From Jiella pelagia (GTDB lineage Bacteria; Pseudomonadota; Alphaproteobacteria; Rhizobiales; Rhizobiaceae), in assembly GCF_026898155.1 (NCBI RefSeq), contig NZ_CP114029.1, positions 317,501 to 381,500 of the forward strand: DNA of 64,000 nucleotides, read 5' to 3'. The notes beneath the pieces are model-generated. The model worked only from the letters and a program-made list of their open reading frames with translations, was not told where the DNA came from and made no database searches. Below are positions 5,794 to 51,838 of the stretch, piece after piece. The position numbers and the translations under genes were made by a program. Numbering within the stretch: position 1 is the stretch's first letter; each line of letters begins with the position of its first letter.

Positions 5794-6594
5794 ATGGCAC
5801 CGGCGGGCGAGCGAAGCGACGACGACGAGCCCGGCGGTTCCGGCCAGGGCGGCTTGCCCGGCCTCGAGGAGCGTCCGGGCAACTCGCCGCGAATGGCACC
5901 CACCAGCGTTCCGGCAAAGACCTCATCCCACCATGACGGCCACCGCGACAGGCTGCGCGAGCGCTTTTCGACCGCCGGCGAAGACGCACTCGCCGACTAC
6001 GAGCTGCTCGAACTCATCCTCTTCCGGACGATCCCGCGCAGGGATGTCAAGCCGATCGCCAAGGCGCTGATCGCCCGCTTCGGCTCGCTCGCCGAGGTGC
6101 TCGGCGCCCCTCAGAAACGCCTGACCGAAATCCCGGGCGTCAAGGACGCCGTCGCACTCGATCTCAAGGTCGTCGCGGCCGTCAACCGGCGGGCGATGCG
6201 CTCGGCCGTGCGCCAGCGCGAGGTGCTCTCCTCCTGGACGGCGGTTCTCGACTACTGCACCGCGGCGATGGCCCACGAGGCCCGCGAACAGTTCCGCATC
6301 CTGTTTCTCGACAAGAAGAACGCCCTCATCGCCGACGAGGTGCAGGGCACCGGCACGGTCGACCACACGCCGGTCTATCCGCGCGAGGTCGTCCGCCGAG
6401 GCCTGGAGCTGAACGCCACGGCGATCATCCTCGTCCACAACCACCCGTCCGGCGATCCAACGCCGTCGCGCGCCGACATCGAGATGACCAAGACGATCAT
6501 CGACACGGCAAAGCCACTCGGCATCGCGGTCCACGATCACATCATCATCGGCAAGAACGGCCATGCCAGCCTCAAGGGGCTGCGGCTGATCTAG
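5794..6594 (+). CDS. radC: RadC/JAMM domain DNA repair-associated protein
   Basis: The 266-residue product carries a helix-hairpin-helix-like N-terminal half and a C-terminal JAB1/MPN/Mov34 metalloprotease-type domain with the signature [14 protein letters not shown] (His-X-His, Ser, Asp). The first roughly 45 residues are Gly/Ser/Pro-rich and weakly conserved, so the true start could be one of several in-frame ATGs; 5794 is the first after the map stop. The biochemical role of RadC is unresolved despite its repair name. It ends the sfsA-map-radC run and converges on the aspartate aminotransferase gene. Confidence 0.9.
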
Positions 6595-6684
6595 CTTGCG
6601 CACGACGTGCAGGACCGGGCCAACCGCCGCGTCGGCGACCACGGTCAGTCACTCGTTTTCCGGCCGTCGGTCCGCGGCCAAGCC

Positions 6685-6718
6685 GATCTGAAGTTCCTCG
6701 CGGGCGGAACTTCAGATC
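6685..6718. terminator. Perfect 13-bp inverted repeat between convergent genes
   Basis: GATCTGAAGTTCC at 6685-6697 pairs exactly with GGAACTTCAGATC at 6706-6718 around an 8-base loop. It sits in the 185-base gap between radC (+) and the aminotransferase (-), where a bidirectional transcription stop is expected. No T-run follows on either side, so it could also be an RNA-stabilising hairpin. Confidence 0.5.
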
Positions 6719-6779
6719 TCAGACCGCGCCGCCTCGAAGACCCACCATGTCGCGGAAGGGCTTAACGCTGGCGGAACGC

Positions 6780-47555: not shown

Positions 47556-48705
47556 ATGTCGAAGGCCGCCAGCGATCAACTCAGGATCGGCGTCGTGGGC
47601 TGCGGGAACATCTCCCATGCCTATCTGCACAACGCGGCAATGTTCGGGGATGTCAGGCCCGTCGCCTGCGCCGATCTCAATCCGGAGACCGCAAGGGCCC
47701 GGGCCGAGACCTTTGGCATCGAGGCGATGAGCCCGGACGAGCTGATCGCCTCGCCGGAGGTCGACCTCGTCCTCAACCTCACCATCCCTGCCGCGCATTT
47801 CGCCATCTCGATGCAGGCGCTCGAGGCGGGCAAGCACGTCTTCACCGAAAAGCCGCTCGGCACCACCGTCCGGGAGGGGCGCAAGCTCGTCGAGACGGCC
47901 AGGGCGCGTGGCCTTCTGATCGGCTCGGCGCCGGACACCTTCCTCGGCGCGGCCGGGCGCCATGCCCGCCGGATGATCGAAAGCGGCGCCATCGGCCGCC
48001 CGGTCACCGGCACCGCCTTCATGATGGGCCGCGGCATGGAGCACTGGCACCCGGACCCGGCGTTCTATTACCAGCCCGGGGGCGGGCCGGTCCTCGACAT
48101 GGGGCCGTATTACCTCAGCATGCTGGTCAATCTGCTCGGGCCCGTCCACCGGGTGCAGGCGCTCTCGACCAGCGCGCACCAGGAGCGGCACCTGACGGCC
48201 GAAGGCCCGCTCAAGGGCAGCCGCATCCCCGTCGGCACGCCGACCAGCGTCTCCTCCCTCCTCGAATTTGCCAGCGGCACGCAGATCACCTTCGTCGCCT
48301 CCTGGGACGTCTATCGCCATAGCAACCGCCAGATCGAACTGCACGGCACCGAAGGCTCGCTCGGCCTGCCGGACCCCGACAACTTCTCCGGCGTCGTCAG
48401 CCTGTCCGATCACGGCGCGCCCTGGCAGGACCTCGACACGGCGTCCCTGCCCTTCGGCGCGCTGAATTGGCCGCTGGAAGCCCCCGATCGCGGCAACTAC
48501 CGGATGCTCGGCCTCGCCGATCTGGCGCGATCGCTGATCGAGGGCCGCGCGCCGCGCGCCTCGGGCGACCTGGCGCTGCACGTCCTGGAAGTGATGGAAG
48601 CGATCCTGACCGCCGGCGAGACGGGCGAGACCGTCATGATCGAGCCGGTCGACTGCCAGCCACGCGCCCTCGGCGAGACCGAGGCAGAGGAGCCTCTTGA
48701 AATGA
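47556..48705 (+). CDS. Gfo/Idh/MocA family oxidoreductase, last codons affected by a +1 error
   Basis: GGAGGACAAGCC precedes the ATG. The product has the Rossmann motif VGCGNISHAYLHNA, the EKPLGTTV family signature (EKP, catalytic Lys region) and a C-terminal sheet domain with YYQPGGGPVLDMGPYYL and ELHGTEGSLGLPDPDNF. As given the frame runs on into the next gene, producing an apparent 695-residue fusion. Removing one base from GAGCCTC at 48690-48696 ends the protein with Leu-Leu-Lys and a TGA at 48703, giving about 382 residues, a normal length. The family oxidises sugars, glycosides or inositols with NAD(P). Confidence 0.9.
48690..48696. other. Probable +1 error at a GAGCTC site (false gene fusion)
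   Basis: GAGCCTC here, with the extra base on the C. Restoring GAGCTC separates the two genes through an ATGA overlap at 48702-48705. Confidence 0.8.
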
Positions 48706-49643
48706 CCGATCTCGACGCATCCGCCGCCGCCGCCATCCGTGCCATGTCGGAGGCCGGCGCTCCGTCGCTGGCCGATCTGACGCCGGAAGCCGCGCGCATT
48801 CAGTACGATCAGGGATATGCCGGCCTGCAGCTTCCCCATGAGGATGTCGAGGAAGCGACCGTCGGAACCTGGGAGGGCCTGCGCGTCAAGATCTGGCGCG
48901 GCCATGGCGCCCCGCGCTCGGGCGGGCGGGCCTTGCTCTACCTCCACGGCGGCGGCTGGGTCATCGGCGCGATCGAATCGCACGAGCAGATCTGCCGGCG
49001 CATCGCCAACCGGACACGCTCCGTCGTCGTCGCGCCAGACTACCGGCTGGCGCCGGAAACGCACTTCCCGGGCGGGATCGAGGACTGCGTGAAAGCGCTC
49101 AGCCATCTGCATGAGCGAGCGGGCGCCCTCGGCATCGACCCGACCCGGATCGCGGTCGGCGGCGACAGCGCCGGCGGCAATCTCGCCGCCGTCCTTGCCC
49201 TCCTGGCGAGAGACGGCGCCGCCCCGCCCGTCGCGGCACAGCTTTTGATCTACCCGAACACCGACCAGGCCCAGGACGGCGAGAGTTTTCGCCAGTTCGG
49301 CGAGGGTCACGGCCTGACGACGCGGGAGATGGCCTGGTTCCGCCAGCACTACCTGCCGACGCAGGAAGCCCGGCAGGACTGGCGCGCCGCCCCGCTCCTC
49401 GCCCCGTCTCTTGCCGGCCTCGCCCCGGCCGCCGTCGTCCTGGCCGGCCACGACGTGCTCTACTCGGAAGGCGCGGCCTATGCCGCCCGGCTGGAGGCCG
49501 AGAGCCGAGCCACGGTGCGCTGCTGGCCAGGCCAGATCCACGGTTTCGTCTCGATGTCGGCGCTCATCCCGGAGGCGACCGAGGCGCTCGACTGGATTTG
49601 CGAGCGGTGGGGGAGTTCGTCGACTGATCTATCGCCGAACTGA
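48702..49643 (+). CDS. Alpha/beta hydrolase of the hormone-sensitive lipase family
   Basis: The 313-residue protein has the oxyanion loop HGGGWVIG, nucleophile elbow GDSAGGNLAA, acid PAAVVLAGHDVL and catalytic His HGFVS. Start ATG at 48702 forms an ATGA overlap with the corrected end of the Gfo/Idh gene. It should hydrolyse a small ester or lactone; in this operon a sugar lactone or acylated sugar is a plausible substrate, which is inference. IS110-family DNA follows its stop. Confidence 0.88.
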   Translation: MTDLDASAAAAIRAMSEAGAPSLADLTPEAARIQYDQGYAGLQLPHEDVEEATVGTWEGLRVKIWRGHGAPRSGGRALLYLHGGGWVIGAIESHEQICRRIANRTRSVVVAPDYRLAPETHFPGGIEDCVKALSHLHERAGALGIDPTRIAVGGDSAGGNLAAVLALLARDGAAPPVAAQLLIYPNTDQAQDGESFRQFGEGHGLTTREMAWFRQHYLPTQEARQDWRAAPLLAPSLAGLAPAAVVLAGHDVLYSEGAAYAARLEAESRATVRCWPGQIHGFVSMSALIPEATEALDWICERWGSSSTDLSPN

Positions 49644-49712
49644 GACTTCAAGCCCCGAGCCGCTCAGGAAGTTTGCGGGAATGTGACACCTGCTGTTTGA
49701 AACAGATGGGGT

Positions 49713-49722
49713 GATTGGGGTC
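49713..49722. repeat. Left subterminal inverted repeat of the IS
   Basis: GATTGGGGTC, exact reverse complement of 51111-51120. Confidence 0.6.
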
Positions 49723-49805
49723 TCGGCCGCAGCGGCGGCTGCTCCCTTCAAGATGGTAAAACGTGGTCCGTGTTGATCGGCCACAAGCATCGAGAGGAAG
49801 CAGCC

Positions 49806-50852
49806 ATGAGATACTATGCCGGACTGGACGTCTCGCTGGAAGAGACGTCGATCTGCATCGTCGACGAGAATGGCGAGATCGTCAAAGAACTGCGATCGGC
49901 GAGCGAGCCCGAAGCCCTGGTCATTTCGTTGCGAACTGTCGACCGCCGCCTTGAACGGATCGGCCTCGAAGCATGCCCGCTCTCGGCCTGGCTCCATGAT
50001 GGGCTGCGCGATGCCGGGTGGCCGGCGATCTGCATCGAAACGCGCAAGGCCAATGCGGCGATGAAGACGATGCCCAATAAGACCGATCGCAATGACGCCC
50101 GCGCTCTGGCTCAGATCATGCGCACGGGTTGGTTTCGCGAGGTTCACGTCAAATCGCGGCAATCCCGTCTTTGGCGCTCGCTTCTCGTGGCCCGCCGCAC
50201 GATCCTGAGCGAGATGGGTTCGATCGAGAATGTCGTGCGCGCGATCCTGCGCGAAGCCGGCATCAAACTCGGCAAGCCCAGTCGCACTGCATTCGACCAA
50301 CGAGTTCGCGAGATGGCGGCGAGCGATCCCGATGTCATGGACTTGATCAGACCGCTTCTCGCCGTCCTTAAGACGATGATGGAGCAGCTCGCCACGCTGA
50401 CGAAGCAGGTTCTCGACATCGTCAAAAGTGAGGAGACGTGCCGACGGCTGATGAGCGTTCCAGGCGTCGGCCCGATCACGGCGCTCGCCTTCCGCGCCAC
50501 CATCGATCGACCGGAGCGTTTCCGTCATTCCAGAGATGTCGGCGTCCACCTCGGACTGACCCCGTCACGCTATCAATCGGGCGAAACCGACATCCAGGGC
50601 CGGATCAGCCGATGCGGCGACGAACTGACTCGCTCCGTTCTTTACGAAGCAGCAAACTCGCTGCTCGTGCGCTCGAAGAAATGGTCGAGCCTGAAAGCTT
50701 GGGGCATGCAGATCGCCCGGCGCCGCGGCATGGCGCGGGCGCGTGTTGCAGTGGCCAGAAAGCTCGCTGTCATCCTGCACCGGATGTGGAGCGAGGGCGA
50801 AGACTTTCGCTTTGGAAAAGAGCCGAGCGCCAGCGTCGCTGTCGCCTCATAA
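49806..50852 (+). CDS. IS110 family transposase (DEDD recombinase)
   Basis: The 348-residue enzyme has the N-terminal RuvC-like DEDD domain (YYAGLDVSLEET, the Glu in CIETRKANAAM and the Asp pair in NKTDRNDARAL) and the C-terminal Transposase_20 domain with MSVPGVGPITALAF and DVGVHLGLTPSRYQSGE. Length and all acidic positions look intact, so it may be active. The ATG at 49806 is chosen because it starts the conserved RYYAGLDVS; an in-frame start at 49770 adds twelve residues. Confidence 0.92.
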   Translation: MRYYAGLDVSLEETSICIVDENGEIVKELRSASEPEALVISLRTVDRRLERIGLEACPLSAWLHDGLRDAGWPAICIETRKANAAMKTMPNKTDRNDARALAQIMRTGWFREVHVKSRQSRLWRSLLVARRTILSEMGSIENVVRAILREAGIKLGKPSRTAFDQRVREMAASDPDVMDLIRPLLAVLKTMMEQLATLTKQVLDIVKSEETCRRLMSVPGVGPITALAFRATIDRPERFRHSRDVGVHLGLTPSRYQSGETDIQGRISRCGDELTRSVLYEAANSLLVRSKKWSSLKAWGMQIARRRGMARARVAVARKLAVILHRMWSEGEDFRFGKEPSASVAVAS

Positions 50853-51120
50853 GGAGCCCACGAAAGGGAAAGGCACACTGACACACCCGCAAGGGTAACC
50901 CGGATCGTTCCCGTGGGGACGAGAGGTTGGGTGATCTCGCTTCGATTCTGGACCCATCGGCAAAGGCCGATCAGGTCGTGAAACAGATTGAGACACCAAG
51001 CCTTCTGGACCCCATCATGCGGCGGCTCGGACGCCGACCGCGAAGAGAAGCATGCGGCCCACGGGGCGACATGATCCGGCCGCGAACAAAACAGGGAGCT
51101 TGACCTCAACGACCCCAATC
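50853..51120 (+). ncRNA. Candidate bridge RNA region in the IS right end
   Basis: This 268-base non-coding stretch runs from the transposase stop to the right inverted repeat. IS110-family elements encode a structured bridge RNA with target- and donor-binding loops; in the IS1111 subgroup it is downstream of the transposase. Several short inverted segments are visible but I cannot assign its loops without folding. The call rests on family knowledge and position. Confidence 0.4.
51111..51120. repeat. Right subterminal inverted repeat of the IS
   Basis: GACCCCAATC, reverse complement of 49713-49722. Confidence 0.6.
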
Positions 51121-51203
51121 AGAGAAGAATACAATGAAAGTGTTTCAAGTCCGAGCAGAAACCGATCTCGCTGCGTCGGCCGCGACCTGCTACTCAAAGA
51201 GCT

Positions 51204-51791
51204 ATGAGGACAGGAACGATACCCTTCAAATTTGATGTCTCCAGCCTGATTAAGCAGGCGCGAAGGGTCGGCAGTCGCGTTGGCAACGTGACGATCAAGC
51301 TGCCTTTCGTGGATATCGACGTAGACCCTCAGGACAAAGAACGGCGGATTGCGCGTGAAGTGGTCATTCGCCTTCGCGATCGGCGGGTCCTTTCGGCTTG
51401 GGAATGCTGCGACAACTGCATCGACAGCGCGTTAGCCTCTCTCCAAGAAATCCGGCAAACCCTAGTGGACAAGCAGGTTGAGCTATCCGACTTGCAGGAC
51501 GGCCCGCTGTATCTGCTACTTGACGCGATGGCTCTCGGCATCAGGCAATTCAGGACTTTCGAAGAGCTTTTGAGGAGGGACGAAAACGCTCCTCCTCATC
51601 CGCGCTTTGGCGACTTTCATCGCCCGATGGATACGCGCCAAGCCTATTTTGACGGCCTTGAAGTGCTGAGGGGCCACCTCAGCAGATGTCTTGGGCAGAT
51701 CGCAAAAATCGCCGATATGCCAGTGCCTGATGAGGGAATTATCGCCAACTACCAAGGTGGCTGGCAGCTCGAAGCATACGAAGAAATCTGA
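51204..51791 (+). CDS. Orphan protein of unknown function in lower-GC DNA
   Basis: The 195-residue product has no recognised family. Beta-rich N-terminal sequence (NVTIKLPFVDIDVDP) is followed by helical segments with CCDNCIDSALASLQEI and a C-terminal part ending ANYQGGWQLEAYEEI. Base composition and codon choice (more A/T-ending codons) differ from all neighbours, which points to recent acquisition together with, or near, the adjacent IS. It has no partner gene. An upstream 33-codon frame starting at 51134 ends within its first codons and may be a leader. Confidence 0.6.
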   Translation: MRTGTIPFKFDVSSLIKQARRVGSRVGNVTIKLPFVDIDVDPQDKERRIAREVVIRLRDRRVLSAWECCDNCIDSALASLQEIRQTLVDKQVELSDLQDGPLYLLLDAMALGIRQFRTFEELLRRDENAPPHPRFGDFHRPMDTRQAYFDGLEVLRGHLSRCLGQIAKIADMPVPDEGIIANYQGGWQLEAYEEI

Positions 51792-51838
51792 AACAGAATT
51801 AGCATGTTTCAGATAGCACAACCGCTCATCGCCTCCCC

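Follow-up and report, generated by a model that had tools for sequence, protein, structure and literature searches.

The 64,000-nucleotide stretch of Jiella pelagia DNA analysed here (the window; genome G000, C1:317501-381500) contains an insertion sequence (IS) of the IS1111 family, next to which lies a single small gene. The IS interrupts one of two neighboring near-perfect palindromes, which we call LP (arms and spacer of 11-6-11, 28 bp) and RP (11-5-11, 27 bp), both with arms of the TGAAACAGAAT type. In our reading, to which we give a probability of roughly 0.8, the IS is RNA guided and targets the arms of LP and RP sites, which in turn bound exchanged gene cassettes. The element and its main parts are as follows.

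49706..51127, + strand: IS1111-family IS, 1,422 bp, with the AG core assigned to the right end; span shared by identical copies
49713..49722, + strand: left subterminal inverted repeat GATTGGGGTC, an exact match to the right repeat
49806..50852, + strand: transposase, 348 amino acids, DEDD, with a GL-P----SG motif (GLTPSRYQSG); ATG at 49806, stop at 50852
50883..51081, + strand: putative bridge/seekRNA, structured part, with a fold that covaries in 24 sequences
51111..51120, + strand: right subterminal inverted repeat GACCCCAATC, an exact match to the left repeat

The genome holds seven complete copies of the IS, plus one copy split by another insertion. Six of the seven, the window copy among them, are identical over 1,422 bp, and the ends were placed at 49706 and 51127 because these six agree over exactly that span; if the AG shared with the target is assigned to the left end, the span becomes 49704-51125. 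The seventh complete copy, on contig C2, is 97.6% identical and a copy in J. avicenniae 98.2%, and recent amplification of the IS in G000 is the best explanation. At L137 (G000:C1:2226455-2231720), one IS1111 copy is split by an insertion of ~1.4 kb. An earlier note, made from the letters of this DNA, had given the element as 49690-51125; its right end is correct, and its left end lies about 15 bp too far out by the comparison of copies that the note itself had proposed and that we carried out on the seven complete ones. The 10-base inverted repeats that it described are exact and form perfect 11-bp repeats when extended. They are subterminal, the same comparison placing the ends of the element outside them and not inside, as the note had thought possible. 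The terminal extensions beyond the repeats, fixed from uninterrupted sites, are 7 bp left and 7 bp right, or 9 and 5, depending on the assignment of the AG. This dinucleotide is common to the target and both IS junctions and is likely the core of the exchange.

The full-length IS110-family DEDD transposase reported earlier is confirmed by matches to both Pfam domains, DEDD_Tnp_IS110 (5.4e-13) and Transposase_20 (1.3e-22), and to the NCBIfam model NF033542 “IS110 family RNA-guided transposase” (256.5 bits; cut-off, 140). Its 348 residues, carrying both PF01548 and PF02371, lie within the 330-350 amino acids given for IS1111 transposases, and GLTPSRYQSG in the C-terminal domain conforms to the GL-P----S(T)G motif (both characters from the part of PMC11187229 used here). 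Further traits of the group are present as well: perfect subterminal inverted repeats at the lower end of the usual 11-13 bp, a longer noncoding region 3' of the transposase gene (275 nt from stop codon to right end), guides of which the top-strand complement lies 5' of the bottom-strand match, and site-specific insertion without target duplication, the joined flanks restoring an uninterrupted site. Relatives of the IS are found mainly in Alphaproteobacteria. It is well supported that IS and bridge RNA constitute a new member of the known IS1111 family with an unusual target, and the earlier IS1111-like assignment is supported by family matches, repeats, 3' RNA fold and guide order.

The right end of the IS, which the earlier note had called free of genes, indeed has no gene assigned to it, only mechanical minus-strand and overlapping open reading frames (ORFs). 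The note had also placed a candidate bridge RNA there and suggested a covariance search and folding. Rfam gave no match for the right end, and its single-sequence fold was mildly better than shuffles (z -1.88); because Rfam was silent and the single fold weak, a comparative alignment of the 3' region was used, comprising the window element and 23 relatives from named genomes, and this does reveal conserved structure. The consensus fold comprises an outer stem, another stem that carries an internal loop and an apical helix, and a second hairpin, whose loop is large. Across the 24 sequences it has 48 pairs, 12 of them with changes on both sides, and 97.1% of 1,146 cells are paired, figures that count for less than they seem to, as the sequences are related and the fold was derived from the alignment that tested it. 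None of 500 shuffles equalled the fold on any of five measures, and shifting the partners by 1-3 columns lowers pairing to 37-47%. A plain IS110-type element, its 3' end without a functional RNA, would suit the silence of Rfam and the modest single-sequence score. We regard such an element as highly improbable, given that covariation beats both shuffles and slides, that guides track their targets across elements (see below), and that the layout agrees with experimentally shown seekRNAs as presented in the excerpted text of PMC11187229. The covarying fold, the guides in two loops and the guide-target tracking support the candidate bridge RNA and, with it, the view that the 3' end of the IS encodes a conserved bridge/seekRNA fold, from which we infer that the RNA is expressed.

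Four putative guides can be assigned within this RNA, the target guides in one loop and the donor guides in another.

50940..50949, + strand: right target guide CTTCGATTCT, in the first loop; antisense to AG-AAT(CGAAG), i.e., AG-AATCGAAG
50978..50986, + strand: left target guide GTGAAACAG; same sense as TGAAAC-AG
51009..51016, + strand: right donor guide ACCCCATC, in the second loop; antisense to the IS left end GATGGGGT, assigned by sequence
51044..51050, + strand: left donor guide AGAGAAG, in the second loop; same sense as the IS right end AGAGA-AG, assigned by sequence

Their order is the published order of IS1111 guides, with the top-strand complement first (PMC11187229, in the portion consulted). 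We compared the best match of a flank to the guide window between an element's own flanks and those of other elements, using 20,000 permutations on 20 elements. This number results from a list of 25 after exclusion of five extra copies of the window IS (L002-L006); for L007, L031, L033, L041, and L051 the script located no right end, and L018 and L022 (truncated flanks) as well as L029, L032, and L035 (left end mislocated) were not used in the comparison. For the right guide, own flanks match at 7.8/10 and other flanks at 5.84/10 (p 5e-5, the permutation floor), and for the left guide at 6.6/9 and 5.76/9 (p 3e-4), both p-values overstating independence, since the elements form few related groups. 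In five Mesorhizobium elements, the left flank and the left guide both contain TTCAACAG, and the right guide contains TAGCAGG. Guides thus appear to be retargeted naturally on one conserved scaffold, as in TGAAACAG-AAT, TTCAACAG-CCTGCTA, and ACAG-GACTCT; as tools for programmable DNA insertion, RNA-guided IS110/IS1111 recombinases attract broad interest. One insertion, L006, lacks the left target, yet has a 9-nt match to the right guide. Taken together, the ends of the IS, the conserved fold and the match of guide to target are established as far as comparison of sequences can do so.

The interrupted LP, the partner site and the gene between them lie as follows.

49698..49705, + strand: TGAAACAG, part of the outer arm of the interrupted LP, from comparison of the flanks of copies
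51128..51147, + strand: AATACAATGAAAGTGTTTCA, remainder of the interrupted LP, from the same comparison
51204..51791, + strand: cassette gene, 195 amino acids, with no Pfam, NCBIfam, or PADLOC family
51789..51811, + strand: RP site TGAAACAGAATTAGCATGTTTCA, 4 bases short of the usual 27

When flanks of IS copies are rejoined, palindromes such as TGAAACAGAAT-CACTGT-ATTCTGTTTCA result. Seven of eight IS insertions are in LP/RP-type sites. Both arms are present in six of them and only the left arm in L007, whose left flank matches a locus in G006 with an intact LP. Uninterrupted target sites, which the earlier note had suggested looking for in relatives, were found, for example, a lone site at locus H1 in G005. 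At L137, LP and RP of one cassette are both occupied by IS1111 copies. A second IS1111 type, with other inverted repeats and a transposase 50% identical at the amino acid level, is seated in an LP in G007, and the region downstream of its gene contains GAAACAG and ATTCT segments in the same order as the window IS. That two RNA-guided IS1111 lineages have guides parasitising LP/RP sites, taken jointly with the cassette-exchange reading, is a proposition on which we are evenly divided.

At up to 3 mismatches, the LP pattern matches one to nine times per genome in the nine other members of the genus that were examined and has no match in G000, the genome of the window. Among 51 genomes outside the genus, nine matched: one (G035) with a clear LP and eight (G014, G015, G030, G039, G042, G043, G044, and G057) with one or two matches at 2-3 mismatches; the backwards control of the pattern matched in two genomes (G022 and G039). 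At up to 2 mismatches among 397 genomes of the order, a set in which G000 and G007 represent the genus, only G007 and G143 match. The latter belongs to a different family of the order, and the matching stretch (L284:1501-2456, G143:C13) holds one LP and a possible degenerate RP. No exact LP was found in viral contigs, and a nucleotide search of plasmids returned five weak matches only, all in Klebsiella and each under an annotated hypothetical protein; these (plasmid matches H1-H5) are LP-like stretches of 33 nt at 85-88% identity and may be due to chance. Two other candidates for the target were set aside: a LacI operator, since the same site recurs with a partner site across the genus, and a chromosomal dif site, since no LP occurs in the window genome even with 3 mismatches allowed. 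A search for a canonical dif core, allowing 2 mismatches, was likewise negative and so gave no host dif arms for comparison.

For the 39 LP matches in G001-G009 and G035, 33 stretches were fetched, two of them holding two matches each; four weak matches at 3 mismatches (one each in G005, G007, G008, and G035) were left unfetched. These stretches are not independent, L170, L176, L187, L189, and L199 being one orthologous locus, H1. In 26 of the 33 an RP accompanies the LP, with their starts 286-3,007 bp apart. The LP spacer is asymmetric (ACAATG-like) and is directed at RP in 29 of 29 LP-RP pairs; in 468 kb of reversed control no site was found. The seven stretches without RP at the threshold are L170, with an IS in the RP place, L183 and L189, with degenerate RPs, and L178, L179, L181, and L199, with none; for L178, L179, and L181, the nearest contig end is at most about 5 kb away. 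LP-RP-LP arrays, two opposed LPs around one RP, occur in L173, L186, L194, and L197. At L140 (L140:7724-9140, G000:C1), the RP is split by a 423-amino-acid transposase ORF, which we take to be of the Mutator/IS256 type, and the other arm of the same RP holds an IS1111 element.

The genes between LP and RP differ from cassette to cassette. They encode ferritin-like pairs, GNAT proteins, a histidine kinase with a response regulator, a short-chain dehydrogenase, Crp-type regulators, a PALP enzyme, DHDPS with LysE, YHYH with PEBP, GGDEF-EAL, MFS, and Sel1 proteins, and a 2'-5' RNA ligase, and many of the products are small proteins without a family. PADLOC, run on 10 cargo proteins, gave two matches: the anti-phage protein SduA of Shedu, in cassette L180:8051-9427 (G006:C19; 2.6e-86), and the candidate defense family PDC-S31, matched by a DUF2971 protein that is accompanied by a GNAT gene in cassette L172:6006-8029 (G009:C23). 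In the 31 intervals examined, the GC content of the cargo is 0.40-0.63, lower than that of the flanks in 26. The window cassette follows this pattern, with an interior GC content of 0.557 and 0.67-0.68 beside it. Its single ORF has a stop codon that overlaps RP, and the 195-amino-acid product has no plasmid homologue at E 0.001. IS and cassette lie between an oxidoreductase/esterase gene and a LacI-type gene. The earlier note had the IS separating a sugar operon from its likely regulator; it does lie between these two genes, but so does the cassette gene, and because IS and cassette are placed between convergent 3' ends, a regulatory disconnection is not evident. In G012 and G020, members of other genera of the family, stretches matching the two flanking genes are ~200 bp apart. 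The left-hand ORF (window 47556-49643, 695 amino acids) fuses a Gfo/Idh/MocA oxidoreductase to an HSL-type alpha/beta hydrolase, and matching DNA is present in G006, G002, G012, and G020.

Orthologous loci differ in their occupancy. The left gene of H1 is present in all 10 genomes of the genus. In G005 a 28-bp site stands alone next to it, the flanks seen in G005 enclose LP-cargo-RP in G003 and G008 (gaps of 1,147 and 630 bp), and G002 has LP-cargo-RP with an IS inside RP (gap of 1,956 bp); G000 has a recognizable RP and no LP, G006 a degenerate LP, and G004 and G007 an LP, the right flank being absent from the sequence that was read. The slot of L140 holds different cargo in G000, G009, and G004 (ORFs of 217, 159, and 246 amino acids), the other IS1111 type in LP in G007, and a degenerate LP in G006. 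At the L141/L192 locus of G000 and G008, both flanks are common; the outer arm of RP is the same in the two genomes and that of LP has a single base change, while the inner arms and the cargo differ. The G000 cargo of this locus recurs at another locus in G006, with 91.6% identity over 1,101 bp, and the homology stops at LP and RP. On this comparison of genomes, site specificity, pairing and orientation of sites, the existence of occupied and empty loci, and turnover of cargo can be regarded as established, and mobility of the cassettes as strongly supported.

These observations bear on two other accounts of the sites. The palindromes might be ordinary dispersed repeats, such as repetitive extragenic palindromic (REP) sequences, or operators, with the genes between them incidental. 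IS110/IS1111 elements are known to target REP sequences (PMC11187229, in the passages used), and on the plasmid-like contigs described below LP overlaps the region right before a start codon, where operators lie. Such an explanation is nonetheless improbable, as it leaves aside that LP and RP form oriented pairs in 29 of 29 cases with complete and diverse cargo between them, and that cargo is replaced within a locus or turns up again elsewhere, its homology then stopping at the sites. Alternatively, LP-cargo-RP may be a transposon-like unit with palindromic ends, e.g., a Y1/IS200-type passenger, turnover being due to homologous recombination or repeated insertion. Orthologous loci with no recognized site would agree with this, in that the outer arms may travel with the unit. 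We find the proposal doubtful: junctions inspected by eye display neither a target duplication nor a conserved outer end, the outer arms of L141/L192 are maintained around different inner arms and cargo, a lone site is left at H1 in G005, and the BLAST listing pairs none of the interiors of cassettes that differ at a single locus. Given the loci that lack a site, outer arms may not always be chromosomal, and sites may arrive with the cassette.

A candidate for the enzyme that acts on the sites adjoins LP. On four small contigs (L168, L193, L195, and L196), LP ends one base before the ATG of a ~190-amino-acid PF00589 recombinase, whose frame on L168 is 6187-6753. Judged by eye from ParA-, relaxase-, and coupling-protein-like ORFs, these contigs are plasmid-like, and the LP-to-RP interval is 332, 258, 2,410, and 1,515 bp, respectively. 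The recombinase falls below every NCBIfam cut-off, reaching 37.6 bits with the integron integrase model TIGR02249 (cut-off, 265). By tblastn, 40 plasmids have relatives of it at E 1e-20, of which 14 were inspected. In a scan that is partly circular, arm strings having been taken from the same plasmids, 8 of 8 Rhodobacterales records have a spacer-5, RP-type palindrome ending ~85 bp before the ATG, and in 7 of 8 a spacer-6 palindrome is recognizable at the ATG; examples of the arms are TTAACACTAT and TTAACAGTAT. A Desulfosarcina plasmid also carries both palindromes, its arms being TTACCCAGAAT and sharing CAGAAT with the Jiella arms. The layout RP(5)-LP(6)-ATG is thus found in Desulfosarcina and most Rhodobacterales plasmids inspected, with arms partly different from those of Jiella. 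A count independent of arm strings found a spacer-5/6 palindrome in the 45 nt preceding the ATG in 6 of 15 genes and in 11 of 600 shuffled windows. On the eight Rhodobacterales plasmids (L325 and L327-L333), only ~60 bp separate the spacer-5 palindrome from the spacer-6 one, where the latter is recognizable, an arrangement that is possibly an empty cassette platform or a resolution site. Most likely, the plasmid-borne tyrosine recombinase of ~190-200 amino acids owns the LP/RP sites; that it is a mere neighbor of LP is less likely given homologues with the same layout.

Recombination of the sites by the host XerCD, as in the pdif modules of Acinetobacter, would make them Xer/dif-type modules, and the 28-bp 11-6-11 sites and the opposed LPs sharing one RP (L173, L186, L194, and L197) do recall such modules. 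We consider this unlikely for several reasons. There are two classes of site, with spacers of 6 and 5, instead of one, and 11-6-11 is found only in LP; LP is not the chromosomal dif of the window genome, from which it is absent at up to 3 mismatches; and a dedicated recombinase adjoins the sites, its homologues carrying equivalents with partly different arms. The LP and RP arms also seem unlike the consensus arms of dif.

We infer the following course of events for the IS and the cassettes. The transposase would be guided by the bridge/seekRNA encoded 3' of its own gene, the target loop pairing with TGAAAC-AG (left) and AG-AAT (right) and the donor loop with AGAGA-AG and AG-ATGGGGT at the ends of the IS. 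The IS would then be inserted, with no target duplication, into one arm of an LP (11-6-11) or RP (11-5-11) by exchange at the AG core, presumed from the shared dinucleotide. Such sites would bound small gene cassettes scattered on chromosomes and plasmids of the genus, and the short (~190-200 amino acids) plasmid-borne tyrosine recombinase whose gene starts at LP is the putative enzyme acting on them. Cargo would be swapped through LPxLP and RPxRP recombination, a natural cassette exchange in which the unequal spacers (6 and 5 bp) may block self-excision of the cassette, and an IS splitting an arm may lock its cassette in place. For an undescribed gene-capture system of this kind, combining a recombinase, two heterotypic palindromes and swapped cargo that does not excise itself, we see an even chance. 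In the open-licence PMC literature we found no description of LP/RP sites, subscription journals being outside that scope.

Several observations weigh against this reading. The left-target match is weak (at most 5/9) in 7 of 20 elements, and the right guide of the window copy matches only AGAAT contiguously. The IS extensions of 7/7 or 9/5 are unlike the 7 bp (occasionally 6) left and 3 bp right published for IS1111 (PMC11187229, in the part cited); the same source states that end positions in this family often needed correcting, and we treat the deviation as a variant inside the IS1111 group and not as ground for exclusion. Sites are not recognized everywhere: none was found at H1 in G001 and G009 in the sequence read, at the L140 slot in G003 and G008 (other sequence) and G005 (49-bp gap), or at the window locus in G012, G020, and G006. 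As regards the recombinase, neither palindrome is present at the start codon of five Acetobacteraceae homologues, nor is one seen there in the more distant homologues L203 and L207 from other genomes (the starts of L204-L206 and L208 being unreadable). Close relatives in the genus are confined to G002, G005, and, at 50% identity, G004; the other 7 of 10 genomes have no close homologue, though all 10 carry LP or RP. In those seven, cassettes may be resident without the enzyme, or another recombinase may act.

If the recombinase acts on LP/RP in the way proposed, the system would do in nature what cassette exchange does in the laboratory and would let genes flow by a route that integron searches would be expected to miss. 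Here, one IS version specialized on recombination sites provided, through its guide, the lead to an apparently undescribed cassette system with cargo including anti-phage defense.

Among known systems, the closest parallels to the IS are ISKpn4, ISPst6, and ISPa25, IS1111 elements that target attC sites of integron cassettes (PMC11187229, as far as excerpted). Common to both are a downstream seekRNA with the top-strand complement first, insertion into a foldable cassette recombination site, and diverged transposases at one kind of site (46% there, 50% here); the Jiella IS differs in its target, an LP/RP palindrome with TGAAACAGAAT arms, in extensions other than 7/3, and in its mainly alphaproteobacterial relatives. 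With IS621/IS110, as presented in the part of PMC11208160 used here, it shares an RNA of two loops in which target and donor each have a left and a right guide and every guide includes a core dinucleotide, whereas its own RNA lies 3' of the gene, the right guide precedes the left, and the core is AG and not CT as in IS621.

As to the cassettes, the dif modules of Acinetobacter are likewise small gene modules bounded by 11-6-11 sites and visited by a site-specialized IS group, the ISAjo2/IS1202 elements that target pdif (PMC10132070, in the text available). Unlike these modules, Jiella has two site classes (spacers 6 and 5) in one orientation and a dedicated short recombinase on plasmids, and its IS is RNA guided, while ISAjo2 is a DDE element with 5-bp duplications.

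Integrons combine a tyrosine recombinase gene and an adjacent site with small cassettes of very diverse function. The Jiella cassettes resemble them in having such a gene next to a site and in carrying small, functionally very diverse cargo. They differ in that the recombinase beside LP, ~190-200 amino acids long and far below the integron-integrase cut-off, does not correspond to IntI beside attI, that symmetrical palindromes stand at both cassette ends, and that one or two cassettes are seen per locus.
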